A program made the position numbers and the translations under genes. Source: Candidatus Microthrix parvicella Bio17-1 (GTDB lineage: Bacteria > Actinomycetota > Acidimicrobiia > Acidimicrobiales > Microtrichaceae). From it: a stretch of DNA of 64,000 bases. The notes beneath the pieces were generated by a model. It saw only the letters and a list, made by a program, of their open reading frames with translations, ran no database searches and was not told the origin of the DNA. Below, in pieces: positions 23,026-38,778 of this stretch (within the stretch, counting starts at the first letter, position 1; each line of letters opens with the position of its first letter). The stretch spans positions 1 through 64,000 of the forward strand of contig NZ_AMPG01000003.1 in the NCBI RefSeq assembly GCF_000299415.1. The letters are read 5' to 3'.

Positions 23026-23079
23026 CACGCAAGCGGCGCAGAGGCGCCGAGGTGGCGGGAGGCCATAGGGTGCCCGGCC

Positions 23080-24183
23080 ATGGACGGCAACGAGGCCTTT
23101 CGCCTCACCGCCACCAGTCACGGCGCCGGTTGAGCGTGCAAGCTGGGCCCCGAGGCCCTGGCGCAGGTACTGCGCCACTTGCCGACACCCGACGATCCCG
23201 ACCTGGTGGTTGGCATCGATCATGGCGACGACGCCCTCGTGTGGCGCCGGCCGGACGGACGCGCCCTGGTCTCCACGGTGGACTTCTTCGCGCCGCTGGT
23301 CGACGATCCCGCCACCTGGGGGCGAATCGCGGCGGCCAACGCAGTGTCCGACGTGTACGCCATGGGTGCCGAGCCGCTGTTTGCCGTCAATATCGTGGGC
23401 TGGCCCGCCGACCTCGATCCTGAACTCCTGGGGCAGGTGATGGCCGGCGGGTCGGCGACGGCGGCCGAGGGAGGGTGGGTGGTGGCGGGCGGCCACACCA
23501 TCGATGCACCCGAGCCGTTCTACGGCCAGGCGGTCACCGGTGAGCTGAATCTGAACGACCTCATGACCAACGATGCGGCTGCGCCCGGTGACGCGTTGGT
23601 GTTGACCAAACCCCTGGGCACTGGCCTGGTGGCCACCGCCATCAAACGACTCGAGGTGGCCGACGCTGCACCGGCCGGACGGATCGGACCGCTGGTTGCG
23701 GAGGCGATCGCCGAGATGTCCCGGCTGAACCGCGATGCGGCGCTGGTGGCTCGCCGAGCGGGGGCGCGGGCTGCCACCGACGTCACCGGCTTTGGGCTCG
23801 CCGGCCACCTCCACAAGATGATGGTGGCCTCCGGCGCAGCTGCCGTACTGCATTGGGCCGACCTGCCCCTGCTGGATGGAGTGACGCGGCTCGTGCCCGA
23901 GTTTCAGCCGGGAGGCACTGGACGAAACCTGGGCTGGGTGGGGGATGCGTTGCACGTGGAGGGCTCCGCCCGGGAGGCCGGTGCCAGGCGGGCACTGCTT
24001 GGTGACCCCCAAACCTCCGGGGGGTTGTTGGTGTCGTTGCCGCCGGCCCGGGCGGCGGCGATGGTGGTCGAACTGGTGGCCTCCGGCCATCGTGCGGCCG
24101 TGATCGGTGGGGTGGTTGAAGCTGGGGCGCTGGAGGCCGAGGGTGGCGCCGTGGCGGGTTCGGTCAGGGTTCTCGATGGGTGA
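23080..24183 (+). CDS. selD: Selenide, water dikinase (selenophosphate synthetase), selenocysteine-containing
   Basis: 367 residues if TGA at 23131-23133 is read as selenocysteine. From the ATG at 23080 the frame gives MDGNEAFRLTATSHGAGUA then CKLGPEAL. This is the conserved SelD active-site segment (YSHGAGCGCK in E. coli) with U18 at the catalytic Cys position. The rest is a complete AIRS-type ATP enzyme (VVGIDHGDDALVW, NAVSDVYAMGAEP, GGHTIDAPEPFYG, DVTGFGLAGHLHKM, TSGGLLVSLP). It makes selenophosphate from selenide and ATP. A SECIS-like hairpin is at 23159-23177. Without readthrough, conventional calling would start at 23179 and lose the catalytic site. Confidence 0.92.
23159..23177 (+). 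promoter_or_regulatory. Bacterial SECIS element of selD
   Basis: TGGCGCA (23159-23165), loop GGTAC, TGCGCCA (23171-23177): a perfect 7-bp stem whose loop opens with GGU, 33 bases after the TGA. Bacterial SECIS elements need a short stem with G-U in the apical loop roughly 16-37 bases downstream of the codon, and this fits. Confidence 0.72.
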
Positions 24184-24249
24184 TGTCGGCTCCTGAGCGT
24201 GGCGTCAGGTACGGCCGGCGGCGCGGGTTGCCCCGGTAGCCTCACCCCC

Positions 24250-25209
24250 GTGCTTCCCCTCAGGCTGACCTCATCCCGCCGCGTTCGAGTTGCAGGCGCG
24301 GCGCTTGTTTCCATTGTGATGCTGGCCGGTTGCGCCAACGACGGCGACACCGGCACGGCCGGTGGTTCGGGCAACGATGCCGCCGGCGAGGGGGCAACGA
24401 CCAGCACCGTCGCAAAGGACCCGGTGCTGCTGGAGATCGAGAAACGGGGCGCACCCAAGGTTGAAGTTCCCGATCAGCCCGCCACCAAGCTGGAGGTGAC
24501 CGATCTGGTCGAGGGTACCGGCGACGAGGTGGGTGCCGGTGCCACCGTCACGGCCCACTACACCGGCGTCGGTCAGGCATCGGGCAAACAGTTCGACTCT
24601 TCGTGGGATCGCGGCGAACCATCAGCCTTCTCGCTCAACGAGGTGATCCCCGGCTGGGGTCAGGGCCTGGTGGGCATGAAGGTCGGTGGGCGCCGACGGT
24701 TGGTGATTCCTGGGGACCTGGCTTACGGCGACACGCCCCCCAGCCCCGACATCAAGGCCGGAGAGACCCTGGTTTTCGATGTCGACCTGGTGGGCATCGA
24801 TGAAGCCGGCCCCAAGGTCGATCAAAAGGCCCAGGCCGCTGTGGAGAAGCGGGGTGAGCCGACGGTGACGGTGCCCAAGGAGTTGCCGGTCGAACTGATG
24901 GTGACCGACGACGTGGTGGGTACAGGTGATGAGGTGAAGGCGGGAGACAAGGTCACCGTGGCCTACGTCGGCGTCGGCGCCTCAACCGGCAAGCCGTTCG
25001 ACTCGTCGTGGGTACGTGGTGCACCGGTTACCTTCACCCTCAACGAGGTGATCCCCGGCTGGGGCCAGGGCCTGGTGGGCATGAAGGTCGGTGGGCGTCG
25101 CACGCTGGTGATCCCACCCGAGCTCGCCTACGGCGATACGCCCCCGAGCGATGACATCAAGCCCGGCGAGACGCTGGTGTTCGTGGTCGACCTGGTGGGC
25201 ATCGGCTGA
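24250..25209 (+). CDS. Double-domain FKBP-type peptidyl-prolyl isomerase, lipoprotein
   Basis: 319 residues. A lipoprotein signal (SIVMLAGC) is followed by two tandem FKBP domains of about 105 residues. Each has VTDxVxGTGDEV...VTxxYxGVG..SGKxFDSSW and IPGWGQGLVGMKVGGRR..VIP...AYGDTPPS.DIK. The two copies are near-identical in the IPGWGQG block, indicating an internal duplication. It should assist folding of exported proteins on the outer face of the membrane. The GTG at 24250 has TAGCCT seven bases upstream and no Shine-Dalgarno site. It follows selD closely, but a functional link is not implied. Confidence 0.87.
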   Translation: MLPLRLTSSRRVRVAGAALVSIVMLAGCANDGDTGTAGGSGNDAAGEGATTSTVAKDPVLLEIEKRGAPKVEVPDQPATKLEVTDLVEGTGDEVGAGATVTAHYTGVGQASGKQFDSSWDRGEPSAFSLNEVIPGWGQGLVGMKVGGRRRLVIPGDLAYGDTPPSPDIKAGETLVFDVDLVGIDEAGPKVDQKAQAAVEKRGEPTVTVPKELPVELMVTDDVVGTGDEVKAGDKVTVAYVGVGASTGKPFDSSWVRGAPVTFTLNEVIPGWGQGLVGMKVGGRRTLVIPPELAYGDTPPSDDIKPGETLVFVVDLVGIG

Positions 25210-25249
25210 GGTTTGGTGATCCTGCCCGCTTGGGAAGCCTGATCGTGGG

Positions 25250-26149
25250 TCAGGGCGTGCCGGCGTGGGGCACGCCGACGGTTGCGGTCAGCAGCACCCC
25301 CTCGTTGGCCTCGCTGCGCAGTTGCTCGAAGAAGTCGGGGGCGGCGCAGATCAGCAGCGTGGTGCCGTCGTCACCACCGAGCATGCAGGCGAACGCCCCC
25401 AGGCCCTCCGGCATGGCGATCTCGTCGGTGATCTCGCCGCCCTCGGCCACCCGCACGCAGCGGGCGCCAATGGCGTCGGCAAACCAGATCTGACCTTCGG
25501 CGTCAAGGCAGCACCCGTCGGGGCCGACGGTGACCATGCCGATGGTGTCCTCGAACGAACCCAGGGCCGGGGTGGGCGCCAGCTCAGCCCATACCCGCCG
25601 GTCCGACAGGGTGCCGTCCGGCTGGATGGTGAAAGCGCTGTAGCGGCAGCCCATGGTTTCCCCGACGATCAGGGTGGAGCCGTCAGGGGTGATCACCGAC
25701 CCATTGGGGAACATCAGTTCAGCGGCGGCCACGCTGAGGGTGCCGTCGGGATCCACCCGGATCAATGGGCTGGCAACCGGCGTTTCACCGCCCATCAGGT
25801 CGAATCCGAAACCGCCCACCCAGGCCCGGCCGTTGTCGTCGACCACCATGTCGTTGGCCATGCCGGTGATCAAACCTGACAGGTCGGCGTGGGTGACCAG
25901 CGTGCCGTCCGTCTCCTGACGCAGCACCCGCTGGTCCTTCATCGACACCACCAGCAGGCGCCCGTCGGGCAGCCAGCCGAGGCCGGATGGCTGGGTGTCG
26001 ACCTCCAACACCTGGGTCTCTGTTCCATCGGGGGCGATGGTGAACACGCCGTGTCGGTAGAAGTCGGACACCCACCAGGCGCCGTCGTGCCACCGGGGGC
26101 CCTCGAAGAACTTGCCGCCGGTGGTCAGGGTGCTGAGTTCATGTGCCAT
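25250..26149 (-). CDS. SMP-30/gluconolactonase/LRE-like beta-propeller protein
   Basis: 299 residues, six-bladed propeller of the SMP-30 family. It shows GGKFFEGPRWHDGAWWVSDFYR (metal-binding Glu near residue 18), GWLPDGRLLVVSMKDQRVLR, GMANDMVVDDNGRAWVGGFG (metal-binding Asn/Asp), and CLDAEGQIWFADAIGARCVRV. Members hydrolyse sugar lactones or phosphotriesters; the substrate is unknown. Start at ATG 26149 with TAGCGT (26156-26161, minus strand) exactly six bases before it, so leaderless. Confidence 0.84.
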   Translation of the reverse strand: MAHELSTLTTGGKFFEGPRWHDGAWWVSDFYRHGVFTIAPDGTETQVLEVDTQPSGLGWLPDGRLLVVSMKDQRVLRQETDGTLVTHADLSGLITGMANDMVVDDNGRAWVGGFGFDLMGGETPVASPLIRVDPDGTLSVAAAELMFPNGSVITPDGSTLIVGETMGCRYSAFTIQPDGTLSDRRVWAELAPTPALGSFEDTIGMVTVGPDGCCLDAEGQIWFADAIGARCVRVAEGGEITDEIAMPEGLGAFACMLGGDDGTTLLICAAPDFFEQLRSEANEGVLLTATVGVPHAGTP

Positions 26150-26155
26150 CGGCCC

Positions 26156-26195
26156 ACGCTAATGGGGGCGCTAGAATCTCGTACCTGCGAGGTAC
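26156..26195 (-). promoter_or_regulatory. -10 box and upstream palindrome of the SMP-30 gene
   Basis: TAGCGT lies at 26156-26161 on the minus strand. About 20 bases further upstream, at the -35 position, is the palindrome GTACCT-GCG-AGGTAC (26181-26195). The arrangement suggests a repressor or activator site. It also marks where similarity to the broken permease ends. Confidence 0.4.
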
Positions 26196-27275
26196 GCGGT
26201 TCCGCCGCGTTCACCACCCCAAAGATGATCAGGAACCCGACGCTGCCCATGGTCGAGATGCTGGCCAGGTCGAGGACGTTGGCCAACACGAGAGTGGCGG
26301 CGGCCGGGATGAAGAGTCCAATCAGCGGCCGGTGCCAGATCGGCTTATCCAGACGTTCGGGCAGTTCCCCTTGCGGGCGATCGTGTTGCTGAGTCGCTCG
26401 GTGCCGTACAAGGTGGCATTGATCGCCGAGGCCGTAGAGAGCATGGCCGCGATCGCAATCATCTTAAAACCGACCCCGCCGAGTGCAGGCCGTGCGGCGA
26501 TGGCGAGCGCGTAGTCCCGGGCCTGCACCAACTGGGCCACCGGTACCGATCCCACCGAAACCACCGCCATGAGCAGGTACAGCACGATCACGAACAACAC
26601 CGAGATGTAGTAGGCCTGCGGCAGCGTGCGGCCCGGATCAGCGACATCCTCGGCCGCGTTGGCGATGAGCTCGAATCCCTCATAGGCCAGGAACACGATC
26701 ATCCCGCCGGCCACGAGCGACACCGGAGAACTCCACTGCCCTGGCGCCAGCCGCGATGCCGCGATGCCGAGATGCCCACCGCCACGAAGAGCACCAGGAT
26801 GACGAGCTTGATCACCACCACGATCCGTTCGGCGCGGGCCACCGTCGACGCTGCCGCGACGTTCAGCAGCGTGATGAGGACTATTGCGGCACTCAGAAAC
26901 AGGTGTTTCGTGCCGGCTCGGATCCCGTGGGGCAGCAGGCTCGCCGCAGAGCCGCCGAACGCCTCGTTGACGAAGGTGACCGTGCCGCCTTTGCGTGGGT
27001 ACGACTTCTACAGCAGCGCATAGGGCCGTGCCGTCAGCAGAGCCACGCCGCCGGCCACGAGGAACGCGATCGGCGCACCGCCACTGGTGATCTGCACGGA
27101 CAACCCGAGCACCGCGGAGATCCCCCCACCGACCATCCCACCGACGCCGATGGATACGACGCCCCAGAGCCCGACCTGACGAGACGTGGCACCCTGCTCC
27201 GTGATGCGGCGAGGGTGCCAGCGATCTGGTCGAGAGTCCCCCGAGTGGTGTGCCCGCTGGGGCTCCGGCCGTCAT
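26196..27275 (-). pseudogene. Amino-acid permease (APC family), multiply disrupted
   Basis: Stitching frames on the minus strand gives an APC transporter. It runs from GLWGVVSIGVGGMVGGGISAV through GGTVTFVNEAFGGSAASLLP, WSSPVSLVAGGMIVFLAYEG, FELIANAAEDVADPGRTLPQAYY and MLSTASAINATLYGTERL, ending in the NVLDLASISTMGSVGFLIIFGVVN helix. It is broken by an in-frame TAG at 27008-27010, by frame changes near 26750 and near 26360, and probably near 27215. The last helices are missing. The break next to the truncated IS1380 transposase suggests decay after insertion and deletion. Confidence 0.8.
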
Positions 27276-27289
27276 GCGACCCGCCTGCC

Positions 27290-28808
27290 GATCGCGCGTG
27301 TTGGGTCGGAGGTACTGTGGCTTGGCCGGGCAAGATCAAGTGATCTTCGTGCGGGCGATCGAACGGTGTTGCTCCGGACCTCGGTGACCCGCATCCCAAG
27401 CGGAAGCGAGGCAGCATGTCGAACCACGACGGCGGTGCAGGCGAGTCGGCGGGGCAAGGGCGTGGCGTCACCACCTGGCAGCCATCCCGGAGGCCATGCG
27501 GAACCGCATGGACGCGTACTGGCGGGCGGCGAACGGATCGACACGCAAAGCCCTCGGGTTCGTTCCGTTGGCGCCATCGACGATCGGGACGTTCCTCCGC
27601 TCGTTCAAGTTCGGTCATGTCCGCCAGCTCGACGCGGTGAACAGCCGCCTGTTGGCCAACGCGTGGGCTGCGGGTGCCGGACCGAAACCGGACGAGGAGT
27701 TGGTGGTCGATCTCGACTCGACCGTCACCGAGGTCTACGGCAAACAAAAGCAGGGCGCCTCCTACGGCTACACCGGTGTGTTGGGCTATCACCCGCTGAT
27801 CGCCACCCGTGCCGGCACCGGTGAGGTCCTTGGATCGAGGATGCGTAAAGGCGCCGCCGGGTCCTCCCGTGGGGTTCTCCGGTTCATCGGCGAGGTCCTC
27901 GCCACGATCGGCCGGGCCGGGGTGTGCGGGCCGGTCACGGTCCGGGCCGATTCGGGGTTCTGGTCCTGGAAACTCATCGACAAACTCACCAAGGCCGGTG
28001 TTGGCTGGTCGATCACGGTCCGCCTTGTCCCCAAAATCAAGACAACGATCGCTGCGATCCCTGAAGAGGCTTGGACCACGATCGACTACACCCGTGGCGG
28101 TCACGCCCAGGTCGCCGAAACGATCTACACCACCGGGAAAGGCAAACAGGTCCGCCACGTCCGGCTGGTCGTGCGCCGCACCCGACTCGCTGACACCGCC
28201 CAGGCTGCGATGTGGCCAACCTGGCGCCACCACGCGTTCATCTGCAACAACGCCCTCACCACCGTCGAAGCCGACCGGTTCCACCGCAACCACACTGTCG
28301 TCGAGCTCGCCATCCGCGAACTCAAAGACAACGGACTCGAACACTGCCCATCAGGCAGCTTTGCTGCCAACGGGGCCTGGCTCGCATGCGCCGTCCTCGC
28401 ACACAACCTCACCCGCTGGACAGGGATCATCGGTCTCGACGGCCCAATCCGAACCGCACGCACCATCCGCAACCGGATCATCGCCCTCGCCGGTGCTCTC
28501 GTGAACCGATCCGGCACCCCCACCCTCCGGCTCCCCACCGACTGGCCATGGGCCCACCAATTCCACGCTGCGCTCACCACGATCAGAGCACTCCCCACCG
28601 CCGGACCACCCTGACCCACGGGCCCGGTGGGATGCGCCCCACACACCGACCACCCGTGCGCTCACAACCCAGCCCGGTGCCACGAACCCCTTGGTCCCAC
28701 GCGCCCCAAATCCAGACCAACAGGCCCAACACCGGGCCGACGACCCCACCCAACTCGAACATCCCTCACTACCCTCGGTCAAGAATCCGATCGGTGGATT
28801 CAGGTTAA
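27290..28808 (+). mobile_element. Partial IS1380-type insertion sequence
   Basis: The right end is visible: CGATCGGTGGATTCAGG ends at about 28808, and IS1380 elements commonly end in CCTGAATCC-type termini. No matching inverted copy was found upstream of the transposase, consistent with loss of the left end together with the permease start. The left limit near 27290 is approximate. Confidence 0.6.
27388..28614 (+). pseudogene. IS1380-family transposase, 5'-truncated
   Basis: An intact frame from about 27496 codes for 372 residues of an IS1380-type DDE transposase. Landmarks are APSTIGTFLRSFKFGHVRQLD, the first acidic block VVDLDSTVTEVYG, KQGASYGYTGVLGYHPLIATR, the second RADSGFWSWKLIDKL, and the C-terminal RELKDNGLEHCPSGSFAANG. 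Family members are about 450 residues; the N-terminal helix-turn-helix part is absent. The frame upstream of 27496 (stop at 27385-27387) reads as arginine-rich nonsense. The catalytic core is complete, but without its N-terminus and left end the element is probably immobile. Confidence 0.8.
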
Positions 28809-28931
28809 GTAACCCGGTGACCCGGCGCTGCTATTCCTTTGGAGGCTTGCCATCCAGCGAACAGCGGCATCGACCCCAGGGTGCGAGGCGGCGGCGCGGA
28901 CCGTACCGGCCTTCGTGTCGACTGAGAGGAG
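28615..28931. other. IS right flank and spacer
   Basis: Non-coding C-rich 3' region of the insertion sequence up to its terminus at about 28808, then about 120 bases before phnA with no recognisable gene. Confidence 0.5.
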
Positions 28932-29258
28932 CTACGCCTTCCTCACCTTGTCGGCAATGATCATGATGTTGCGACCGTTCACCTTGCCTTCGATCGGGTG
29001 GTCACCCGCAACCAGGCGTATCGACTTGATTTTGGTCCCGATCTTCACCCCGCCCGACTTCCCGTTGAGCTTCAACTCCTTGATGACGACCACGTCGTCG
29101 CCAGCGACCAACACGGCGCCGTTGACGTCGCGCACCTCGTGCACCTCGTCAGAAAGCTCGGGCAACCAGGCGTGGCCACAGGCGGCACACTCAAAACCAT
29201 CCTCGGCGATGAGTGGTTCGGGCGTGGTGCAGATCGGGCATTGAGGAGCTTCGGTCAC
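28932..29258 (-). CDS. phnA: PhnA/YjdM-family zinc-ribbon protein
   Basis: 108 residues. The N-terminal zinc ribbon is CPICTTPEPLIAEDGFECAACGHAW, and the C-terminal SH3-like PhnA domain is VRDVNGAVLVAGDDVVVIKELKLNGKSGGVKIGTKIKSI...NGRNIMIIADKV. Despite the name, YjdM proteins are not proven phosphonate enzymes and their role is unknown. The protein is complete and well conserved, so it is probably functional although it sits between IS remnants. Confidence 0.88.
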   Translation of the reverse strand: MTEAPQCPICTTPEPLIAEDGFECAACGHAWLPELSDEVHEVRDVNGAVLVAGDDVVVIKELKLNGKSGGVKIGTKIKSIRLVAGDHPIEGKVNGRNIMIIADKVRKA

Positions 29259-29579
29259 TTCAACTTTCTAGCCGCAGGACGGAGCTGTTTGCCTGGCAAT
29301 GTTTCGTCACCTTCATGCCGTGCCACGGTCACGTCCGGTTGGTCTTGGTGAGGGCTAAGTAGTGTCGGGCTCGGTACTCGGCAGCTCCTTCTGCGATGAA
29401 CGCTGCGGCAAGACGAAGGCACATCCCGGTCGATGACCCAGGGGGGCTCTTCGTAGGCAATGGGTGGCCGGCCAGCCGTCTCGATGTTGTGACACGGTCA
29501 CCCTCACTGTTATCGCCTACACGATGAGGTGAGAATACTCTCGCACCAGGGAAGGTGATCGTTCGATGGTCGCATCCGG

Positions 29580-29661
29580 CGTTTGCGAGGACCGCACACG
29601 CGAGCCAGGCCTCGTCGGCGGCGAACAGCCCGGAGGGGCAGTGTTCGAGCCCGTTGTCTTC
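29580..29661 (-). pseudogene. Scrap of a second IS1380-type transposase
   Basis: On the minus strand EDNGLEHCPSGLFAADEAWL then ACAVLAN matches the C-terminal block of the nearby transposase (KDNGLEHCPSGSFAANGAWL, then ACAVLAH), with enough changes to show it is a different copy. Nothing else of the element is recognisable between 29259 and 29723, so only about 27 codons remain. Confidence 0.72.
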
Positions 29662-29711
29662 CCACCGGCCACTCCGGCCTGGATCGCTCACTTACATTCG
29701 CATGCATGGCG

Positions 29712-29717
29712 TATACT
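29712..29717 (+). promoter_or_regulatory. -10 box (TATACT) of the second MazF operon
   Basis: TATACT ends six bases before the antitoxin ATG at 29724, and no Shine-Dalgarno site is present. This predicts a leaderless mRNA. TTACAT at 29692-29697 is a poor -35 at 14-base spacing. Confidence 0.5.
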
Positions 29718-29723
29718 CTCTGT

Positions 29724-29975
29724 ATGACGCAGACCTTGAGCTTCCGAGCTGACCCCTCGCTCGCCGGGGAACTCGATGCTGCTGCGGCCGAGGCAGGTGT
29801 TCCGCGGAGTGAATTGCTGAACCAGGCCATCCGTGAGTTTCTCTACCGCCTTCGATGCGAGCGCGACGCCGAGCGCTACGCATTGCACCCGCTCACGCCA
29901 ACAGAGACAGCGGCTTGGCCAAACGAAGCGTGGCCAGACGATGACACCGACTGGACCGAAGTGTTCCACCAATGA
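29724..29975 (+). CDS. Antitoxin, ribbon-helix-helix type
   Basis: 83 residues. TLSFRADPSLAGELDAAAAEAGVPRSELLNQAIREFLYR is a ribbon-helix-helix DNA-binding domain. The acidic, tryptophan-containing tail (AAWPNEAWPDDDTDWTEVF) is the likely toxin-binding part. Its stop overlaps the toxin start in ATGA (29972-29975). It sits directly after the transposase scrap, in the accessory patch. It is not closely similar to the first antitoxin in the window. Confidence 0.8.
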   Translation: MTQTLSFRADPSLAGELDAAAAEAGVPRSELLNQAIREFLYRLRCERDAERYALHPLTPTETAAWPNEAWPDDDTDWTEVFHQ

Positions 29976-30289
29976 AGCGGGGCGAGATCTGGTTTGCCGA
30001 TGTGGGTCGAGGTGGAGAACGTCCCGTTCTCGTCCTCACCCGCGATCCAGTCGCCGACCGCATTGGCGCAGTCGTGGTGGCCCATCTGACGACGACGATT
30101 CGCGGCCTGACGTCGGAACTCCGGCTGGGCCCCGTCGACGGACTCAAACGGGACTGCGTCGTCTCCTTCGACAACCTCCACACGCTACCGAAATCGTCGT
30201 TTCGTCGACGCGTCGCAGTCTTACGCCCAACGCGACTCGACGACGCCTGCGACCGACTGGCCGACGCACTCGGCTGCGGCAACCGCTGA
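29972..30289 (+). CDS. Toxin, MazF/PemK family endoribonuclease
   Basis: 105 residues. KRGEIWFADVGRGGERPVLVLTRDP is the standard MazF opening with the RPVLVL strand. VVVAHLTTTIRGLTSELRLGP, DCVVSFDNLHTLPKSSFRRRVAVL and the C-terminal helix complete the fold. It should cleave RNA when released from the antitoxin it overlaps. With the pair at 4995-5560 it is the second MazF system in 25 kb, but the two toxins share only family-level motifs. Confidence 0.87.
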   Translation: MKRGEIWFADVGRGGERPVLVLTRDPVADRIGAVVVAHLTTTIRGLTSELRLGPVDGLKRDCVVSFDNLHTLPKSSFRRRVAVLRPTRLDDACDRLADALGCGNR

Positions 30290-30577
30290 TCATCAGACCA
30301 GGGGCTTCTTTCTCGGCGATCTCGGCCGGTTCGACAAGCGCATCATGTTCGAGTAGTCAGGGACATCGCCCCTGCATGCCACCGGGTTCTTCCCGGAGTC
30401 GTTGACGATTCGACAGATCTCGGTTGGTGCCCATGCCTGGGGTCAAATCGCAGCGATGGAGTGACAACTTCTGGCGCTCAGTGTCCGGTGTCTCGATGAG
30501 CGGGCAGAACTCGCTACAGATGAAGAGAATACCGCTGAAGGATCACGATCGGTCGTGCCCAGCGGGATGCCGGGCCG
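30290..30577. other. Intergenic, nothing recognised
   Basis: About 290 bases after the second MazF gene. No frame on either strand has a convincing start, ribosome site and protein-like composition. Confidence 0.4.
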
Positions 30578-30790
30578 TCACCATCCGTAGTCCCAGCTCG
30601 GCCACAACGTCGATTCCGCTACCCGCAGGGTGGCGTCCCGGACGTCGGGTCCAACTGGATCGAGGGCACCGTCGAGCACTTCGACCGCCTGACTCGAAGC
30701 TTCGTCGTCGACCGCCACTCGAACGACCGCGTCCTCGACCAAGTCGACCTCGGCGTAGACCGGATACATGTACTTGACCATCACGGTCAT
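30578..30790 (-). CDS. Small hypothetical protein
   Basis: 70 residues (MVKYMYPVYAEVDLVEDAVVRVAVDD...), acidic and beta-rich, ending in WPSWDYGW. On the minus strand GAGGAGGG lies a few bases before the ATG, an excellent ribosome site. That ATG overlaps (ATGA) the stop of an upstream frame whose last residues (IASIEDPLGWTVLEETSEIELEEGK) also look protein-like but whose start is unclear. A two-gene operon of small proteins is possible. No family recognised. Confidence 0.42.
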   Translation of the reverse strand: MTVMVKYMYPVYAEVDLVEDAVVRVAVDDEASSQAVEVLDGALDPVGPDVRDATLRVAESTLWPSWDYGW

Positions 30791-30990
30791 TTTCCCTCCT
30801 CGAGTTCGATCTCAGATGTTTCCTCGAGAACGGTCCAGCCTAGAGGATCTTCGATCGAGGCAATCGCCCCGCACATACCGGTCCACCGGCAACCCAGCTT
30901 CGAGCCCAGATGCAAGTGAACGTCATTGGAGCACCGCCGCTCCGCGTCACCGTGGCCGAAGTGGGACTGCGGGAGCCTGGTACGGCACCT

Positions 30991-31074
30991 GTTGTGTCGG
31001 AGGGGGGACTTGAACTCCCGCAGTGGTCGTGATGCCCAGTGCCACTCAGTTGCCATTTGTCCTGCAATTGCAGG
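30991..31074 (-). other. tRNA-3'-end-like fragment next to a 14-bp palindrome
   Basis: On the minus strand GGGAG-TTCAAGT-CCCCC-CTCCGAC-A (about 30995-31020) resembles the T-arm, acceptor strand and discriminator of a leucine-type tRNA. No matching 5' acceptor strand (GTCGGAG) occurs within 100 bases. About 50 bases away is the perfect palindrome CCTGCAATTGCAGG (31061-31074). A tRNA 3' scrap at the edge of an accessory region is what an attachment site leaves behind. Tentative. Confidence 0.32.
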
Positions 31075-31180
31075 GGATCTGGCCCTAGAACCCGGGACCA
31101 CCCAATGCGCTGAATCTCACTCGCATCTCGGCCGTTGGCGTCTCCTGAACCCGCGGGATGGTGCGCGCTAGACACTTGAG

Positions 31181-32173
31181 GTGCTCCACGTTGAAGGTCT
31201 TCGCAAGTCCTACGGGGATCATGTGGCGTTGGCCGGAGTGGATCTGCACGTCGAGGCCGGTGAGATCTGCGGCGTTTTGGGCCCCAACGGCGCAGGGAAG
31301 ACCACCCTGGTGTCGGTGATCTGCGGGCTGCTCCGGCCAGACTCGGGCAGCATTCGGGTGGGCCCCCACGATGCCCTCCGCAACAGCAACCAGGCCCGAC
31401 AACTGATCGGCCTGGCTCCGCAGGAGACCGGGATCTATCCGTCGCTGTCGGTGCGGGACAACCTCCGGTTTGCAGGTCAGTTGGTTGGTCTGTGGGGGAA
31501 GGCGCTCGGTGGTCGAATCGCCGAGGTCGCCGAGGCGTTTGAGATGGATGACAAGCTCGATCGGCAGGCACACGGGATGTCCGGTGGCGAGCAGCGCCGC
31601 CTGCACACGGCCATGGCCATCCTGCACCGACCGCCGCTGCTGTTGTTGGACGAACCCACCACCGGCGTGGATGTCGGCTCACGCGTTCGGCTGCTCGGCA
31701 CCATCAAAGCGCTGGCGGCCGAGTGGGGCAGCGCTGTGTGTTACTCCACGCACTACCTGCCGGAGGTGGAGGCGCTGGAGGCCAGCGTCGCCATCCTCGA
31801 CGAAGGCCGGGTGATCGCTCGGGGTGACCCCACCCAGTTGATCGCCGGGCAGGCCGAAGCCGCCATCGAACTGCGCTTCGACGGTGAGGCGCCTGCATCG
31901 GTTGGCGGTCTGGAGTGCGTCCGGCAGGGGACGGTGCTGGTTGTCTCCACCCCCAATCCCGCCGGCGAGTTGCCTGGGGTCATGGCCGCCCTCGGGGACG
32001 ACGTGGCGCGTCTGGAATCGGTGGAGTTGCTCCGGCCCAACCTGGAGAGCCTGTTTCTGGCGCTGACCGGACGTCGCTACGACGTCGAGGGCATCGAAGT
32101 GGGCGAGGTCGTCGGGGCCGCCGAAGGGGTCACCTCAGGCTCGGGGCCGGTGCCTGAGAAGGAACGACCATGA
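31181..32173 (+). CDS. ABC transporter ATP-binding protein (ABC-2 type exporter)
   Basis: 330 residues. Walker A is LGPNGAGKTT, the signature is MSGGEQRRL, Walker B is LLLLDEPTTGVD, with the switch histidine in CYSTHYLPEVEAL. After about residue 225 a DrrA-like C-terminal extension follows. It energises the permease encoded next, overlapping it by four bases (ATGA). The GTG at 31181 has TAGACA ending six bases before it. Substrate unknown; drug or lipid export is typical for the class. Confidence 0.9.
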   Translation: MLHVEGLRKSYGDHVALAGVDLHVEAGEICGVLGPNGAGKTTLVSVICGLLRPDSGSIRVGPHDALRNSNQARQLIGLAPQETGIYPSLSVRDNLRFAGQLVGLWGKALGGRIAEVAEAFEMDDKLDRQAHGMSGGEQRRLHTAMAILHRPPLLLLDEPTTGVDVGSRVRLLGTIKALAAEWGSAVCYSTHYLPEVEALEASVAILDEGRVIARGDPTQLIAGQAEAAIELRFDGEAPASVGGLECVRQGTVLVVSTPNPAGELPGVMAALGDDVARLESVELLRPNLESLFLALTGRRYDVEGIEVGEVVGAAEGVTSGSGPVPEKERP

Positions 32174-33036
32174 CCGAGCACGTCAACCCGGCCGGCGACG
32201 TGACAACACCCGGGGTGGTTCGTGGCCGAACGGAGCGGCCCGGCGCCGCAGTTGCCGGCCGTGGCTCCTTGGGCCGGATCTGGGCGGTCACCCTGCAGGA
32301 TCTTCGCATGGTGAAGGCCGACCCGAGCTTCCTCATCATCATGGTGCTGATGCCCCTGGTTGCCATGGCCTTCCTCAAGGGGGCGTTCGCCCCGGCGATG
32401 GCCCAGCTGGGGGTGCCCAACGCCAACGGCTCCGAACAGGTGGTGCCCGGCACCGCGGTGACGTTCTCGTTCTTTCTCGTGGGGAACGTCGGGTTTGTGA
32501 TCTTTCGCGAGCATGGCTGGCACACCTGGGTGCGGTTGCGGGCCTCGCCGGCGTCAACCTCTGAGATCCTGGCGGGCAAGATCCTGACGCCGGTGCTGTC
32601 GTCGGTGCTGCAACTGACGGTCTTGTTCGGCGTGGGCGCACCGCTGTACGGCCTGACCGTGCAGGGGTCGGTATGGGCGCTCATCCCCGTGTCGTTGGCA
32701 CTGGCGGTGTGCCTCACCATGCTGGGCCTTGCGCTGGCCGCAGTGTGTCGCACCGTGATGCAACTGAACTCGATCGTCAACGTGGGCACGATACTGATGG
32801 GCGGCCTGGGTGGGGCGCTGACACCCTTGGCGACCCTGCCGGGCTGGGCACAGGCCATCGCGCCGGCGGTGCCCAGCTACTGGGCCATGAAGGGATACCA
32901 GGCGGTGATCATCGGCGGCGGAGGTGTGGGCGACGTGACGTCGTCGGTGGGAATGCTCCTGGTGTTCTCGGTGGTGTTCGGCGTGATCGCCCGGATCTTC
33001 TTTCGGGTCGATGATGCCAAGGTGTTTATGGCGTAG
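32170..33036 (+). CDS. ABC-2 type transporter permease
   Basis: 288 residues with six predicted membrane helices (LIIMVLMPLVAMAFLKGAF first, VGMLLVFSVVFGVIARIFF last). The cytoplasmic-loop pattern FREHGWHTWVRLRASPASTSEILAGK is typical of ABC-2 exporters. It pairs with the ATPase whose stop it overlaps. Confidence 0.86.
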   Translation: MTEHVNPAGDVTTPGVVRGRTERPGAAVAGRGSLGRIWAVTLQDLRMVKADPSFLIIMVLMPLVAMAFLKGAFAPAMAQLGVPNANGSEQVVPGTAVTFSFFLVGNVGFVIFREHGWHTWVRLRASPASTSEILAGKILTPVLSSVLQLTVLFGVGAPLYGLTVQGSVWALIPVSLALAVCLTMLGLALAAVCRTVMQLNSIVNVGTILMGGLGGALTPLATLPGWAQAIAPAVPSYWAMKGYQAVIIGGGGVGDVTSSVGMLLVFSVVFGVIARIFFRVDDAKVFMA

Positions 33037-33068
33037 CGATGCCGATGGGCGCTCTGGTTCGAGCGCCT

Positions 33069-33932
33069 TTACAACAACAGGTTGCCGCCGTCGACCGGCA
33101 GGCTGACGCCGGTGATACCACGCGCCTCATCGCTGCACAGCCACAGCACAGCGTTGGCGATGTCGGCCGATTCCAACCACGGTAGATCCAATGCCTGCAT
33201 GGGGTTGAGCACGTCGGCCACGTCCTCGAACGTTGGGTTTTCGAGGTCACCGCGCATCACGCCCGTGAAGTACTCGTTCTCGATCATCGGCGTGCGCACC
33301 GACGACGGGTGAACACTGTTGACCCGAATGTTGTTTGGCGACAGTTCGAGCGCCATCGTCTTCATCAGACCGGTCACGCCGTGCTTCGAGGCGACGTAGG
33401 GCGCCGACACCCACATGCCTTTCAGCCCGGCGATCGACGAGGTCACCACGACCGAGCCGCCCCGGTCGGCCTCGATGATGGCGGGGGCGGCCGCACGCAC
33501 GGTCTTCCAGACGCCGGTCAGGTTGGTGCCGACGATCTCGTCCCAGGCCGCTTCCGACAGTTCGGTGAACAGCGAGGTGGCCATCACCCCGGCGTTGGCC
33601 ACCACCATGTCAAGGCGTCCGAACCGTTCGAGTCCCTCGGCGACAGCGCCCTCCAACGCCGCCAGGTCCCGCACGTCGGCGACTCGGGAAACCATGGCGC
33701 CCCCCACCTGCTCCACCTGGGCCACCGTGGTGGCAAGGTCCTCGGGGGTGGCCATCGGGTAGGGGATCGATTCGAGCTGGGCGGCCAGGTCGACGCCGAT
33801 GACGTTGGCGCCTTCGGCGGCAAAGCGGACTGCGGCCTCGCGGCCCTGCCCCCGGGCGGCGCCGGTGATCAACACCACCTTGTCTTCGAATCGGCGGCGG
33901 CCCTGCTCCGTGGGTACGGATGCTGTGGTCAT
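33069..33932 (-). CDS. Mycofactocin-coupled SDR-family oxidoreductase
   Basis: 287 residues. The cofactor motif VVLITGAARGQGREAAVRFAAEGANVIGVD with GARGQGR, and the insertion before the second strand (LESIPYPMATPEDLATTV), are hallmarks of the mycofactocin-dependent SDR subgroup, which keeps its NAD bound and passes electrons to mycofactocin. NAGVM, SSIAGLKGM, YVASK and ITGVSLPVDGGNLL complete the SDR pattern. The substrate is probably an alcohol. AAGGGG lies seven bases before the ATG. It converges with the ABC exporter genes. Confidence 0.86.
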   Translation of the reverse strand: MTTASVPTEQGRRRFEDKVVLITGAARGQGREAAVRFAAEGANVIGVDLAAQLESIPYPMATPEDLATTVAQVEQVGGAMVSRVADVRDLAALEGAVAEGLERFGRLDMVVANAGVMATSLFTELSEAAWDEIVGTNLTGVWKTVRAAAPAIIEADRGGSVVVTSSIAGLKGMWVSAPYVASKHGVTGLMKTMALELSPNNIRVNSVHPSSVRTPMIENEYFTGVMRGDLENPTFEDVADVLNPMQALDLPWLESADIANAVLWLCSDEARGITGVSLPVDGGNLLL

Positions 33933-33974
33933 GGTTGGTCCCCTTGTTGGATGTCGGCGGATGTGCCGATGTGG

Positions 33975-34880
33975 TCAGGACACCTCGGCCCGGGTTGGAT
34001 CGTCGACGTTCTCGGGGCGCCGCAGCGTGTGGGGCGCCGAAGCGTCGGGAACCCGGTGTACCGGCTGCAGGTCGGCACCCGGCCGAACGCTGGGCACCAG
34101 GTCGTCGGTGTCGATCTGCACGTCGAGTGAGTCGTCGGCCCATGCCTCGGTGACCCCGACCACCGTGGTGATGGTGGCGAAACCCTCCAGCAACAGCGCC
34201 ACGTCGGTATCCGGGGGCGGTACTGCGTCGCTGGGTCGCAGCTCGAACTGTTGCCGGTCGTTGTCGTCGGTGGTGATCGCTGCACGCATGGTGCCAAACG
34301 GGGCAAGGCGGGCCCAGCGCACACCGTGGCAGTCGTCCAGGTCGCACGCCGGCGCGTTCAGGTTCAACACGGTGCGGCTGGGCGCTTCGATCAGCAGGTC
34401 CAACATCTCTACCGCCAACGCCGCGGCGGTCGACCAGTACCAGGGGTGGTCGTCGGCGGTCTCGGCGGCGCTGACCGCCAATCCCGACAGCCCAAAGTTC
34501 TGCCCCGCCAGCGCGGCGCCAACCGTGCCCGAGTGCAGGACGGCCCGACCGGTGTTGGCCCCGGCATTGATTCCCGACACGATCAGGTCGGGTGGCGGCC
34601 CGAAAGCGCCGAGCCGGGCCACCACCACCGTGTAGGCGGGGGCACCGGCCACGGCGTAGGCCTCGACGTGCTCGGCTCCGTCGATGGTCACCCGTTCGGA
34701 TCGGATCTCCCCCAGGTTCACGTAGCTGTCACTGGAGTTGGCCAGCGACGTGCCGGCGCCGCTCCAATCGCTGTCGGGGGCGATCACCACGATCTCGTGA
34801 TCGGTGTCGGCCAGATGCCGCACCAGTTCTTGAAGGCCCTCAGAGGAGATGCCGTCGTCGTTGGTTACCTGAATGCGCAC
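33975..34880 (-). CDS. surE: 5'/3'-nucleotidase SurE
   Basis: 301 residues. It opens with MRIQVTNDDGISSEGLQEL, where the ND-DG residues bind the catalytic metal, followed by VVIAPDSDWSGAGTSL and PDLIVSGINAGANTGRAVLHSGTVGAA. SurE dephosphorylates nucleoside monophosphates and is usual next to stress or repair genes. The C-terminal third is longer than in E. coli and unconserved. GTG start with TACGGT ending six bases upstream (34887-34892, minus strand) and no Shine-Dalgarno site. Confidence 0.9.
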   Translation of the reverse strand: MRIQVTNDDGISSEGLQELVRHLADTDHEIVVIAPDSDWSGAGTSLANSSDSYVNLGEIRSERVTIDGAEHVEAYAVAGAPAYTVVVARLGAFGPPPDLIVSGINAGANTGRAVLHSGTVGAALAGQNFGLSGLAVSAAETADDHPWYWSTAAALAVEMLDLLIEAPSRTVLNLNAPACDLDDCHGVRWARLAPFGTMRAAITTDDNDRQQFELRPSDAVPPPDTDVALLLEGFATITTVVGVTEAWADDSLDVQIDTDDLVPSVRPGADLQPVHRVPDASAPHTLRRPENVDDPTRAEVS

Positions 34881-34937
34881 GTCAGCACCGTAGCCAAATG
34901 TGTGGTTGATCGGGCGCCGTCACCATCGGGGCCGGAA

Positions 34938-34979
34938 CTTCGACGGGCCCGAACGCAGTTGCGTCCGGGCCCGTCGAAG
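34938..34979. terminator. Long perfect hairpin terminator
   Basis: CTTCGACGGGCCCG (34938-34951) pairs perfectly with CGGGCCCGTCGAAG (34966-34979), and the loop continues the stem as ACGCA-gt-TGCGT after one unpaired base on each side. It follows the SHOCT gene (minus strand). No T-run is seen on either side, usual for high-GC actinobacteria. Confidence 0.75.
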
Positions 34980-35010
34980 CGTGAAACCTTCAACCCTCAG
35001 GCGAGGGAAC

Positions 35011-35415
35011 TCAGCCGTGGATCAGCTTCGCCTTCGCAGCGGCGAACTCGGCGTCGTCGAGCTTGCCGCTGTTGTGCAGGTCGGCCAACTTGGTCAACTC
35101 CTCGGCGGTTCCACCGGTTCCGCTCGTACCGGCGGCGTCACGGATGTAGGCCTGCATCGCCTCCTGGTTGTCCTCGGCCGCCTTGACCTGGCGTTGGGCC
35201 ATGCCCGATCCGTTGAAGATCAGGTAGGCGAAAACCCCGAGATAGGGCAGGAAGATGATCAGCACCGACCACAGAGCCTTGGCGACCCCGGACTTGTCAC
35301 TGCGGATGATGTCACCGAAGATCTGGAAGATGAGCATGATCCAGATGAAAAACAGGAAGAACCAGATGATGGACCAGAGGACCTGACCGGTTCCGAACTC
35401 GGCTGCGAGTTGCAA
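35011..35415 (-). CDS. SHOCT-domain membrane protein
   Basis: 134 residues. Two membrane helices (VLWSIIWFFLFFIWIMLIFQIF and KALWSVLIIFLPYLGVFAYLIF) form the PLD-nuclease-N-like module. A charged linker and a C-terminal SHOCT motif follow (EELTKLADLHNSGKLDDAEFAAAKAKLI). SHOCT proteins are common, function unknown. The start is probably a TTG at 35415, with AAAGGGG six bases upstream; longer ATG-initiated frames upstream are arginine-rich noise that overlaps the Nudix gene. Confidence 0.78.
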   Translation of the reverse strand: MQLAAEFGTGQVLWSIIWFFLFFIWIMLIFQIFGDIIRSDKSGVAKALWSVLIIFLPYLGVFAYLIFNGSGMAQRQVKAAEDNQEAMQAYIRDAAGTSGTGGTAEELTKLADLHNSGKLDDAEFAAAKAKLIHG

Positions 35416-35558
35416 GGCAACCCCTTTCGTTGTTGGCGGCACCGCCGCTGTGGGACCTGCCTTCGGTCGAAGGCGGCGATGGAATCTAGCGCAACCCTTC
35501 TTCCAGGTGGACAGGGCGGGACTCGACCCGTCGGGCTGATTGCGGCGGCACCCTCCGG

Positions 35559-36014
35559 CTACCCCAACTCGGCGGAAACCCAGTGGACGACCCGCCGGTA
35601 CACGGAGGCCTTGAAGTAGACCACCCGGTCGACCAGCGCATCGGGTTCGGCCCATCGCCACGACGCAAACTCGGCATCGACCGCAGCCTCCAGGTCGGGC
35701 TCGGCATCGCCGACCGTTCGGGCCAAAAACCAGCGTTGGATCTGGCCCAGGTGGCTTCCGGGGTTGGTGCCGGGAAACGCATACGGCAGCCACTCGTCCA
35801 GTTCGCTCACCCACTCCACCTGCCCCTCACCCAAAGCGGTCTCCTCGGCCAGTTCCCGGCGGGCCGCAGCCTCGGGGCGCTCGTTGCGGTTGATGCCGCC
35901 CTGAGGAAACTGCCAACTGTCGGGGTGATCGGTCCGTTCGAACCACGCCACACGTCCGTCGCTGCGAGCCACCACGATGCCGACGTTTGCCCGGAAGGTT
36001 GCTGCCTTTGCCAC
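35559..36014 (-). CDS. Nudix hydrolase (RppH-like RNA pyrophosphohydrolase)
   Basis: 151 residues. The Nudix box GGINRNERPEAAARRELAEETAL has all core residues (G-x5-E-x7-REUxEE). WQFPQGGI before it and WRWAEPDALVDRVVYFKASVYRRV after it match the RppH/diadenosine-polyphosphate hydrolase subgroup. Most likely removes pyrophosphate from 5'-triphosphate RNA or nucleotides. It diverges from the selenoprotein gene with 98 bases between. Confidence 0.85.
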   Translation of the reverse strand: MAKAATFRANVGIVVARSDGRVAWFERTDHPDSWQFPQGGINRNERPEAAARRELAEETALGEGQVEWVSELDEWLPYAFPGTNPGSHLGQIQRWFLARTVGDAEPDLEAAVDAEFASWRWAEPDALVDRVVYFKASVYRRVVHWVSAELG

Positions 36015-36112
36015 GCCGGCGACCGTATCGGAGCGGCGCGCCCCTCAAGGTGGCGGGTGCCTCAGCCTGGAGGCGGCAGGTAGGGTCCGATGACGCCGAT
36101 CCGGGAGCGCAC

Positions 36113-37147
36113 ATGGTTGCCACCACGTTCATTTCACCGAGTGGGACGTCGGTGGTGGACGCCACCTGGGTCGATGGTTCGCCCGAGCTGGACCTGGCGG
36201 CGTTGCGCCAGGCCACCGGCTGGGAGTTGAACGAGTCCGGGTTCTGCCGGGGCGATCTGTGTGTACCCAACCGCTCCGGCGTCGGGGCCAACGGGCGCGT
36301 GGGGCCACACGGCGTGGCAGCGGCGCTCGATGCGCCGGTCATCATCGATGCCGAGGCGCAGGCCGTGGTGATGGGCGAGCAGCGTTCGCAGCGGGCGCTT
36401 GCGTTGCAAGGAGCCCAGCTGCCGCCCTTCGAACTGCCCGACCTGGGCGGCACGCCGACGCCTTCGTCGACGTGGGCAAACAAGAAGAAGGTGTTGGTGG
36501 TCTTTGCCAGTTGGTGAGGCTGTCGATACGACCTGCCAGGTTGGCAGGCACTGCAGAACGAACTGGGTGACGACAACGTGGTGTTCGTCGCCGTGGCCCT
36601 CGACGACTCGGCCGAAGACGTGGCCGAGTTCGCGACCGACATCGAACTACCCGTCTTGTTGGACCGTCATCACGTGCTCAGCGAAACGCTTGCCGTGTCC
36701 AACGTGCCCACCGTGGTGTGGGTGGACGAGGCCGACCGCATCGTGGTGCCCAACTGGGTTGCGTTCTCCAACGATCTGTTCACCGACTTTCACGGCATGA
36801 AATCGGGTCCGGCGCTCGATGCGATCCGCGGCTGGGTGACCAGGGGTGACGTTCCCGAGGAACTGGCGGTGGATCCAGCGACGATTGGTGATCTCAGCGC
36901 CGATGAGGAGGCTGCCCGGCTGTGGTTTCGTCTCGCCGTGCACCTGCGGGATTTGGGTGACGACGAGGGTGCCTCACAACGCTTCGCACGCGCCGGCGCG
37001 CTGGCTCCGTTCGACTTCACCATTCGTCGAGCGGCGATGCCACTGGTGGGTGACGACCCGTTTGGTCAGCCATTCTTCGACCTGTACGGCCAGTGGGAGG
37101 GGGCGGGCAGCCCCTACCACGGCATCCGCCCGGCGCAGCCCAACTGA
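36113..37147 (+). CDS. Thioredoxin-fold selenoprotein (W-U-G-C redox site)
   Basis: 344 residues if TGA at 36515-36517 is read as selenocysteine (U135). Upstream in frame is KKKVLVVFASW and downstream GCRYDLPGWQALQNELGDDN, giving the ASWUGCRYDLPGW active site of a TlpA/AhpC-like redoxin. The fold then continues (VVFVAVALDDSAED, ELPVLLDRHHVLSETL, SNVPTVVWVDEADRI with the cis-proline) and ends in a helical C-terminal domain. Residues 1-115 are a separate N-terminal domain. The start at 36113 follows GGGAG. Both halves of the thioredoxin fold are coding, so a nonsense mutation is unlikely. Related to no-name ResA-like proteins with Cys at this site. Confidence 0.85.
36532..36548 (+). promoter_or_regulatory. 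Bacterial SECIS element of the thioredoxin-fold selenoprotein
   Basis: CCTGCCA (36532-36538), loop GGT, TGGCAGG (36542-36548): a perfect 7-bp stem closed by a GGU loop that starts 22 bases after the TGA. Spacing and loop closely match the E. coli fdhF element and the selD hairpin in this window. Confidence 0.78.
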
Positions 37148-37278
37148 GCAGGAGCGAGGCCCGACCGGGCACAATCGGCGAGGCCTGACAAAGACGGTGC
37201 ATCATCGTGGCAGACTTGCCACCTTGATCGCCCGATGACCCTGGCGATCCGATGGCACGACCATTTTGGGGAGTATCG

Positions 37279-38778
37279 ATGACAGAAGTCAGCACTGAGC
37301 AGGGCGTCCTCCGGGGCAGCGCCACCGATCACGGAACGAAGTTTCTCGGTATCCCCTATGCGGCGCCCCCGGTGGGAGCGCTTCGCTTTCGGCCGCCGGC
37401 GCCTCCGACGGGTTGGGACGGTGTCCGCGATGCCGCCGAGTTCGGGCCCATCGCCCCGCAAAACCCGTCGATGATGGATGCGATCACCGGCGCCCAACCG
37501 GAGGCGCAGGGTGAGGACTGCCTGTACCTCAACGTCTGGACCCCGGACGTTGCCGGGTCGGCGCCGGTGATGGTGTGGATCCACGGCGGTGGCTTTCAGA
37601 TCGGCTCGGGCTCGTCGCCCATCTACAACGGAGAGGCCTTCGCCCGCGACGGTGTGGTGCTGGTCAGCCTCAACTACCGCTTGGGTGAGCTGGGTTTCAT
37701 GGAACTGGGCGCCATCGATCCGGGCTACGCGGGCAGCGGTAACAACGGTTTGCGCGACCAGATCGCAGCGCTCGAATGGGTGCGCGACAACATTGCGACG
37801 TTTGGAGGAGACCCCGCCAACGTCACCGTGTTTGGCGAGTCGGCCGGCTCGATGTCGGTCAGCCTGCTGTTGGCCTCCGATGCCGTGAGCGGTCTGTTCC
37901 ATCGGGCGATCTGCGAATCCGGTGGCGTGAACGCAGCCTCCGATCCCGACGCGGCCCACACGTTGGCGGCCCAGTACCTGGCCGGTTCGGGTGTGGACGA
38001 CGTGGCCGGGTTGGTGGCGCTGTCCGTCGAGGAACTGCTTGGGGTCCAGTCGAAGGTGCTCATGGAACGCTTCGCAGACGTGGAGGCAACGATCGAGGCG
38101 GGAGGTGACCCGCTGACCTTTCTGCCGTTCCGGCCCGTGACCGACGGCGACCTGGTTCCCCACGACCCGCTGGCCACCATTGCAAACGGCTCGGCCACCG
38201 GCATCGACGTTTTGGTGGGGTACAACGCCGAGGAGTGGAACCTGTTTGCGCTCATGGACGCCTCGGCCATCGACGACGCGGCATTGGAGCGACGCCTCGA
38301 GTTGGTGAGCGGCAACGGTGCGCCCTTGGCCAGTGCCTATCGAACGGTCAACCCGGACGCTTCGGCCAAGGACCTGCTGAACTTCGCGTTTACCGACCTG
38401 CTGTTTCGTCGTCCGGCCGCCCAGGTGTTGGCCGCTCAGGAAGGCCACGGAGCCACCTTCGCCTACCGGTTTTCGTGGCAGAGCCCGTCGATGGGCGGCA
38501 TGTTGGGTGCGGCGCATGCCATGGAATTGCCGTTCGTGTTCGATCTGGCCCACGCGCCCGGCATTGACGTGCTGGTGGGCCCGGACGCCCCGCAGGTGTT
38601 GTCCAACGCGGTGCACGGCGCATGGGTGGCCTTCGCCAAGTCCGGCACGGCGACGCTGCCGGACGGCCCGGAGTGGAGCGAGTGGCGCAGCGATGCACCC
38701 AACACCATGGACCTCAACGAACTGTGCCGGCCGATCTTCGATGTCCATGACGTCGTCGACGCGGCGTGGGAGGGCTGA
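37279..38778 (+). CDS. Type-B carboxylesterase
   Basis: 499 residues. The nucleophile elbow is VFGESAGSMSVSLLL, the oxyanion hole is WIHGGGFQIGS, and the family start pattern is KFLGIPYAAPPVGALRFRPP with EDCLYLNVWTP. The acidic residue probably lies in DVLVGYNAEEW and the histidine in GMLGAAHAMELPFVF. It hydrolyses esters of unknown type; there is no signal peptide, so it is cytoplasmic. The ATG at 37279 follows GGGGAG. Confidence 0.9.
   Translation: MTEVSTEQGVLRGSATDHGTKFLGIPYAAPPVGALRFRPPAPPTGWDGVRDAAEFGPIAPQNPSMMDAITGAQPEAQGEDCLYLNVWTPDVAGSAPVMVWIHGGGFQIGSGSSPIYNGEAFARDGVVLVSLNYRLGELGFMELGAIDPGYAGSGNNGLRDQIAALEWVRDNIATFGGDPANVTVFGESAGSMSVSLLLASDAVSGLFHRAICESGGVNAASDPDAAHTLAAQYLAGSGVDDVAGLVALSVEELLGVQSKVLMERFADVEATIEAGGDPLTFLPFRPVTDGDLVPHDPLATIANGSATGIDVLVGYNAEEWNLFALMDASAIDDAALERRLELVSGNGAPLASAYRTVNPDASAKDLLNFAFTDLLFRRPAAQVLAAQEGHGATFAYRFSWQSPSMGGMLGAAHAMELPFVFDLAHAPGIDVLVGPDAPQVLSNAVHGAWVAFAKSGTATLPDGPEWSEWRSDAPNTMDLNELCRPIFDVHDVVDAAWEG

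Follow-up and report, generated by a model that had tools for sequence, protein, structure and literature searches.

The gene at 36113..37147 (+) of the window, by which the whole 64-kb stretch of DNA analysed here is meant, is almost certainly a genuine selenoprotein gene, to judge from its sequence and those of its relatives. An in-frame TGA (36515-36517, +) very probably directs the insertion of selenocysteine (Sec) into the active site of an enzyme that acts on disulfides, as residue U135 of a predicted 344-residue product, and homologues run nearly the full length of this product with either TGA or a Cys codon at that position. The protein belongs, as a divergent member, to a selenoprotein group already known and represents no new type; what is new here is modest, consisting of a shorter sister subfamily in which Sec- and Cys-containing members are mixed and which carries an N-terminal CX4C pair.

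Reading frame and Sec machinery

The reading frame begins with ATG at 36113, just 3' of a ribosome-binding-like GGGAG, and ends with a terminal TGA at 37145-37147, the TGA at residue 135 being its sole internal stop, in agreement with the single-TGA open frame described by the sequence-only reading. Only two stops occur in this frame, versus four and six in the remaining frames of the + strand, and read-through yields the core VVFASWUGCRYDLPGW around U135.

The source genome (G000; 13 contigs, 4.2 Mb, 95% complete) encodes the components required for Sec utilization. A single Rfam match to tRNA-Sec scored 67.8 bits, over the cut-off, and was also called as tRNA-SeC with anticodon tca by ARAGORN, while profile searches found selA (394.5 bits) adjacent to selB (262.6 bits) on contig C4, and selD (TIGR00476, 345.6 bits) inside the window. 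The absence of selA, selB and tRNA-Sec had been named in advance as an outcome that would speak against the gene; all three are present, as is selD.

The selD gene, at 23080-24183 (+) of the window, is itself a selenoprotein gene, with an in-frame TGA (23131-23133) at the catalytic place (SHGAG-U-ACKLGP) that is followed 3' by the perfect inverted repeat TGGCGCAG-GTA-CTGCGCCA. Some 12 kb separates selD from the selenoprotein gene at 36113..37147, and selAB and the tRNA-Sec gene are located on other contigs. Additional matches to the selB profile, in 400-residue frames at contig ends (G000:C9:52553-53656 and G000:C6:99-956; 192.9 and 192.8 bits), are probably the elongation factor Tu gene at two contig ends.

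Sec/Cys exchange and the SECIS-like hairpin

A search of the read-through protein against its own genome and 60 related genomes returned 34 matches in 24 of the 61 genomes. Twenty-one loci were aligned, leaving out three strong matches without a locus (all from genome G036, all with TGA) and ten weak ones (33.8 bits or less); alignment A1 comprises 19 of these 21, two near-copies of L022 being omitted. The codon for residue 135 is TGA in 13 of the 21 loci and a Cys codon in the remaining eight, so the Cys homologues that the sequence-only reading had called for do exist, and a UGC or CGC active site was found in 21/21 loci, which had been aligned without a motif filter. In G036, five matches to the family were observed on contigs C140, C156, C164, C176 and C193, all with an in-frame TGA and one with two.

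The same exchange is seen at a broader scale. A profile search of the class matched 100 of 247 genomes, 26 of which were dropped (23 with weak TlpA-like matches only; G090, G259 and G282 with fragments only). The best match in the retained genomes carries TGA in 62 and no stop (Cys form) in 12, and, in this class sample, selA occurs in 60 of the 62 TGA-form genomes versus 1 of the 12 Cys-form genomes (Fisher p 2e-10). The exceptions are G238 (79% complete) and G226 (70% complete), which have the TGA form without selA, and G214, which has the Cys form with selA. No genome in the class search scored higher for SelA (602.9 bits) than G214 (locus L142), which has 5% contamination and whose selA contig may be foreign. 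The fragment-only genome G259 holds a TGA fragment together with selA.

For Cys-form controls, contigs were scanned with a pattern ending in CGC, which detects Cys forms only and provides no census; 108 stretches were found, 105 of them relatives, of which 80 were kept. The named relatives among these 80 belong mostly to Acidimicrobiia and other Actinomycetota (Nocardioides, Frankia), and a few are labelled Gammaproteobacteria, Planctomycetota or Acidobacteria. On a 102-row tree, from which two short rows were omitted, the Sec/Cys labels need 14 changes, at least seven of them forced by well-supported branches. The window protein (L015) forms a branch by itself (0.93), surrounded by a mixture of Sec and Cys rows.

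In bacterial Sec insertion, SelB recognises a hairpin in the mRNA of the kind found here shortly 3' of the TGA and conserved beyond the protein sequence. The SECIS-like element occupies 36532-36548 (+), within the coding frame (DLPGWQ codons), and reads CCTGCCA-GGT-TGGCAGG, with 14 bases between the TGA and the first hairpin base and the loop starting at the 22nd base past the TGA. It had been described as a hairpin with a perfect GGU loop; the hairpin is present, and its structure is better written CTGCC-A-GG-U-(U)-GGCAG (in full, C-CTGCC-A-GG-T-(T)-GGCAG-G), with a two-base tip, an A-U closing pair and an unpaired U alongside. In 33 aligned TGA forms, this bulged-U register gave a covariation score of 0.220 with 98.7% of cells paired, a score reached by 0 of 500 shuffles, compared with 0.074 and 89.6% for the less supported GGU-loop register. 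The innermost pair, N:N', is CG in 21, AU in 6 and GC in 6 of these forms and unpaired in none. This covariation falls at synonymous sites; among TGA forms of the first set, the codon pairs are CCC-GGG (14) and CCA-GGT (6) with LPGW, and CCG-GTC (6) and CCC-GTG (7) with LPVW.

For counting, the full stem was defined as [C/T]TG-CC-N...N'-T-GG-C[A/G][G/A], in which N is the third position of the Pro codon, N' is that of the codon after it, and the two must form a Watson-Crick pair. Scanning of 134 loci gave 118 hits in 117 of them, which collapsed to 104 distinct 60-mers starting at the redox codon (33 TGA, 71 Cys); the scan pattern restricted positions -5 to -1, +1, +2 and a Leu/Met, so that conservation there partly reflects how this set was picked. 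The 17 loci without a pattern hit comprise four other thioredoxins of the window's genome (L010-L013) and 13 family loci that were read separately, namely 12 Cys forms, of which three have the full stem, and a single TGA form, L153, in which one outer stem pair is broken and N:N' is kept. The full stem occurs in 33/33 TGA forms versus 9/71 Cys forms in the first count (p 3e-19) and in 33/34 versus 12/83 with the 13 loci added (p 6e-18), while the N:N' pair alone is complementary in 34/34 versus 30/83 (p 7e-12). Because the hairpin overlaps the conserved DLPGWQ, stem conservation is partly driven by the protein; with the identical peptide LPGWQ, the stem is found in 20/20 TGA forms versus 10/32 Cys forms (p 3e-7).

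As the sequences are related, independent contrasts were taken on the tree, using, like the covariation count and the tree itself, the rows of the first count and none of the 13 added loci. Seven independent Sec/Cys contrasts could be drawn where branch support was good; on average 5.4 of them pair the stem with Sec, and none runs the other way (median p 0.03). For the N:N' pair alone, the corresponding figures are 3.7 and none, which is not significant (median p 0.125). Energetically, the window hairpin is unexceptional (z 0.49; equalled or bettered by 134 of 200 shuffles), so that its folding energy provides no evidence; the evidence comes instead from the comparison of relatives. No Rfam SECIS match at E 1 or better was found in 22900-37400 of the window. 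A flavi_FSE match at 25899-25961 (-) reached 28.3 bits against a cut-off of 43 and is very likely due to chance.

These comparisons bear on two other explanations of the TGA. If it were an ordinary stop, two separate proteins would be encoded, and a GTG-started ORF (36578-37147) is indeed available downstream; such a division, however, would cut the thioredoxin domain inside its own active site, whereas the whole frame is fused via a Cys codon in 8 of the 21 loci and TGA forms co-occur with selA and retain the SECIS stem. This explanation is contradicted by the comparative results and is very improbable. That the TGA arose in a Cys gene by a recent nonsense mutation or a sequencing error is scarcely credible: a single base change would suffice to turn TGC or TGT into TGA, but a TGA in the same frame recurs in 62 of the 247 sampled class genomes, 34 distinct TGA forms were read at the redox codon, and the tree requires 14 changes of label. 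The homologues, the class sample and the stem data contradict such a mutation or error.

Domain architecture and family placement

An AlphaFold model built from 19 rows (pLDDT 91.1, pTM 0.88) places residues 94-248 (36392..36856, +) in a thioredoxin-fold domain of the ResA/TlpA/DsbE type, which contains W134-U135-G136-C137 and the cis-Pro P199. Pfam matches to Redoxin (44.0 bits) and AhpC-TSA (40.7 bits) are both over the cut-off, a Foldseek search of this part of the model gave 1.6e-9 to ResA, and VIA-align superposed it on 3gl3 with Z 18.1 (rmsd 2.1 Å, 138 aligned); DsbE and ResA-type chains fill the first 11 places among the structural matches (Z 18.1-17.1). In the model, U135 is located just before the active-site helix, and G136, C137 and P199 are invariant in 19/19 rows of A1. 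The proposal that Sec replaces the first redox Cys of such a fold is borne out by the Cys homologues at the same place, as is the proposed cis-proline loop by P199.

ResA, TlpA and DsbE (CcmG) are exported thiol-disulfide oxidoreductases with a CxxC motif. The window protein shares their fold and cis-Pro but differs in having U-x-C in place of CxxC, in two extra domains and in the lack of a recognizable export signal or membrane anchor: no signal-peptide-like hydrophobic stretch was detected in the first 70 residues of any of the 19 rows, the maximum 19-residue hydropathy being 1.35 in this simple hydropathy test.

The N-terminal domain (residues 1-96; 36113..36400, +) is modelled confidently (pLDDT 93.9) and carries C45 and C50, a CX4C pair that is invariant in 19/19 rows of A1. 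It has no Pfam match and no clear match in the PDB (best Foldseek E 0.45), which is no proof of a new fold. The N-domains of pilus ushers gave the best VIA-align score, a Z of only 5.9, and were not taken as relatives. The C-terminal domain (residues ~249-344; 36857..37144, +) is helical in the model and TPR-like, with a weak TPR_2 match under the Pfam cut-off (E 0.021 in the window protein, 0.00053 in its relative L016).

The closest described family is NCBIfam NF041054 (ResA-like WAxxUGC, WAxxUGC_long), with which the window protein shares the N-terminal CX4C domain, the thioredoxin domain and the UGC motif, the motif reading WAxxUGC in the family and FASWUGC in the window. The window protein scores 172.6 bits, under the curated cut-off of 300; the main alignment begins at residue 25, covers the N-terminal and thioredoxin parts and stops near position 204 of the 354 in the profile, with a second, weak stretch at about residues 236-314 (20.9 bits). 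All 19 A1 members match NF041054 at E 0.001 or better. Among ten relatives scored singly, L030, L031 and L040 match over the full length with 485-580 bits, while L016, L017, L018, L020, L021, L027 and L029 reach 177-240 bits. Because the scores split in this way into a long and a short type, and the window protein falls with the latter, profile comparison assigns it to a shorter sister subfamily of NF041054 and not to the family itself. No paper naming this shorter subfamily was found in the literature search.

Selenoproteins of this description have been on record for some time. The table of previously described families in the 2008 Global Ocean Sampling survey includes a 'Prx-like (UGC-containing)' entry (pfam00578), for which it counts 46 selenoproteins from 15 samples alongside 855 Cys homologues, with a reported higher abundance outside marine samples (PMC2398784). 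The entry is repeated in a 2022 review (PMC9312934), and Table 1 of a 2026 review lists a 'UGC-containing TlpA disulfide reductase family protein' (PMC13188914); in the available portion of the main text of PMC5029168, a 2016 paper cited by the latter, 'UGC' was not found. The window protein, with UGC at 135-137 within its AhpC-TSA match, resembles the 2008 entry in having UGC in an AhpC-TSA/TlpA-type domain, a likeness of description and not of compared sequences. The suggestion of a new selenoprotein type accordingly gives way, given the 2008 tabulation and the NF041054 alignment. The related proposal that the N-terminal 115 residues and the C-terminal domain fall outside known families is not supported for the N-terminal residues, where NF041054 aligns from residue 25; it holds in part in that the C-terminal half differs from NF041054 and the N-terminal domain is without a Pfam match.

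Proposed function

The product is quite probably a single cytosolic selenoprotein of 344 residues, in which Sec135, inserted under the direction of SelB and the hairpin, forms a selenenylsulfide with C137 in the course of disulfide reduction or exchange. In this mechanism, SelB and Sec-tRNA would decode the UGA at 36515-36517 with the aid of the hairpin 14 bases downstream, and Sec135 of W-U-G-C would act as the attacking selenol, its U-x-C pair having a single intervening residue where the usual C-x-x-C has two. The protein would most likely serve as a cytosolic selenol/thiol-disulfide reductase, acting on disulfides of a protein or a small molecule; we infer this chemistry and location from the predicted fold, the U-x-C motif and the hydropathy test. 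Conservation and fold also prompt the guess that the C45/C50 pair may relay electrons to or from the U135 centre and that the TPR-like domain may bind a partner. In the available literature passages, no measured chemistry was found for a UxC, as opposed to UxxC, selenol centre of this kind.

A selenium-dependent peroxidase of the peroxiredoxin type, in which Sec135 would attack peroxide directly and C137 would resolve the intermediate, is an unlikely explanation with some points in its favour. Peroxiredoxins carry the motif PxxxT/SxxC, with the redox residue last, whereas position -7 of the family is L, V or I in 104/104 distinct sequences and never Pro, which speaks against a classical peroxiredoxin. 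The Redoxin and AhpC-TSA domains both score over their cut-offs, the structural search also returned peroxidase-type chains (5enu, Z 16.4; 9a4d, Z 16.1; 5iow, Z 14.8) and the thioredoxin-dependent thiol peroxidase model NF006960 matches 8 of the 19 members at E 0.001 or better, but the ResA model NF002854 matches 19/19 and the 11 best structural matches are of the DsbE and ResA types. The 2008 label 'Prx-like' also points toward a peroxidase (PMC2398784).

The gene neighbourhood offers little guidance on the substrate of the preferred disulfide reductase. Pfam matches of the neighbours in the window (SDR, SurE, ABC-2 transporter, carboxylesterase, P450 and AI-2E) suggest nothing specific, and no neighbour gene is widely shared or indicates a substrate, the commonest cluster occurring in 15 of 103 loci, many of which have only about 1.5 kb of flank.

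A more far-reaching picture is offered tentatively and is doubtful as a whole, in which two redox centres would cooperate in one cytosolic chain, the familyless N-terminal CX4C domain passing electrons to the U-x-C thioredoxin centre beside a TPR-like partner domain, within a subfamily in which Sec and Cys would replace each other time and again, a SECIS being gained or lost at synonymous sites along the way. Since the subfamily lies under the NF041054 cut-off, annotation relying on that model is expected to miss it and to split the gene. The mixture of Sec and Cys forms among relatives makes the family a good natural test of selenium-for-sulfur swaps in bacteria and of SECIS decay.
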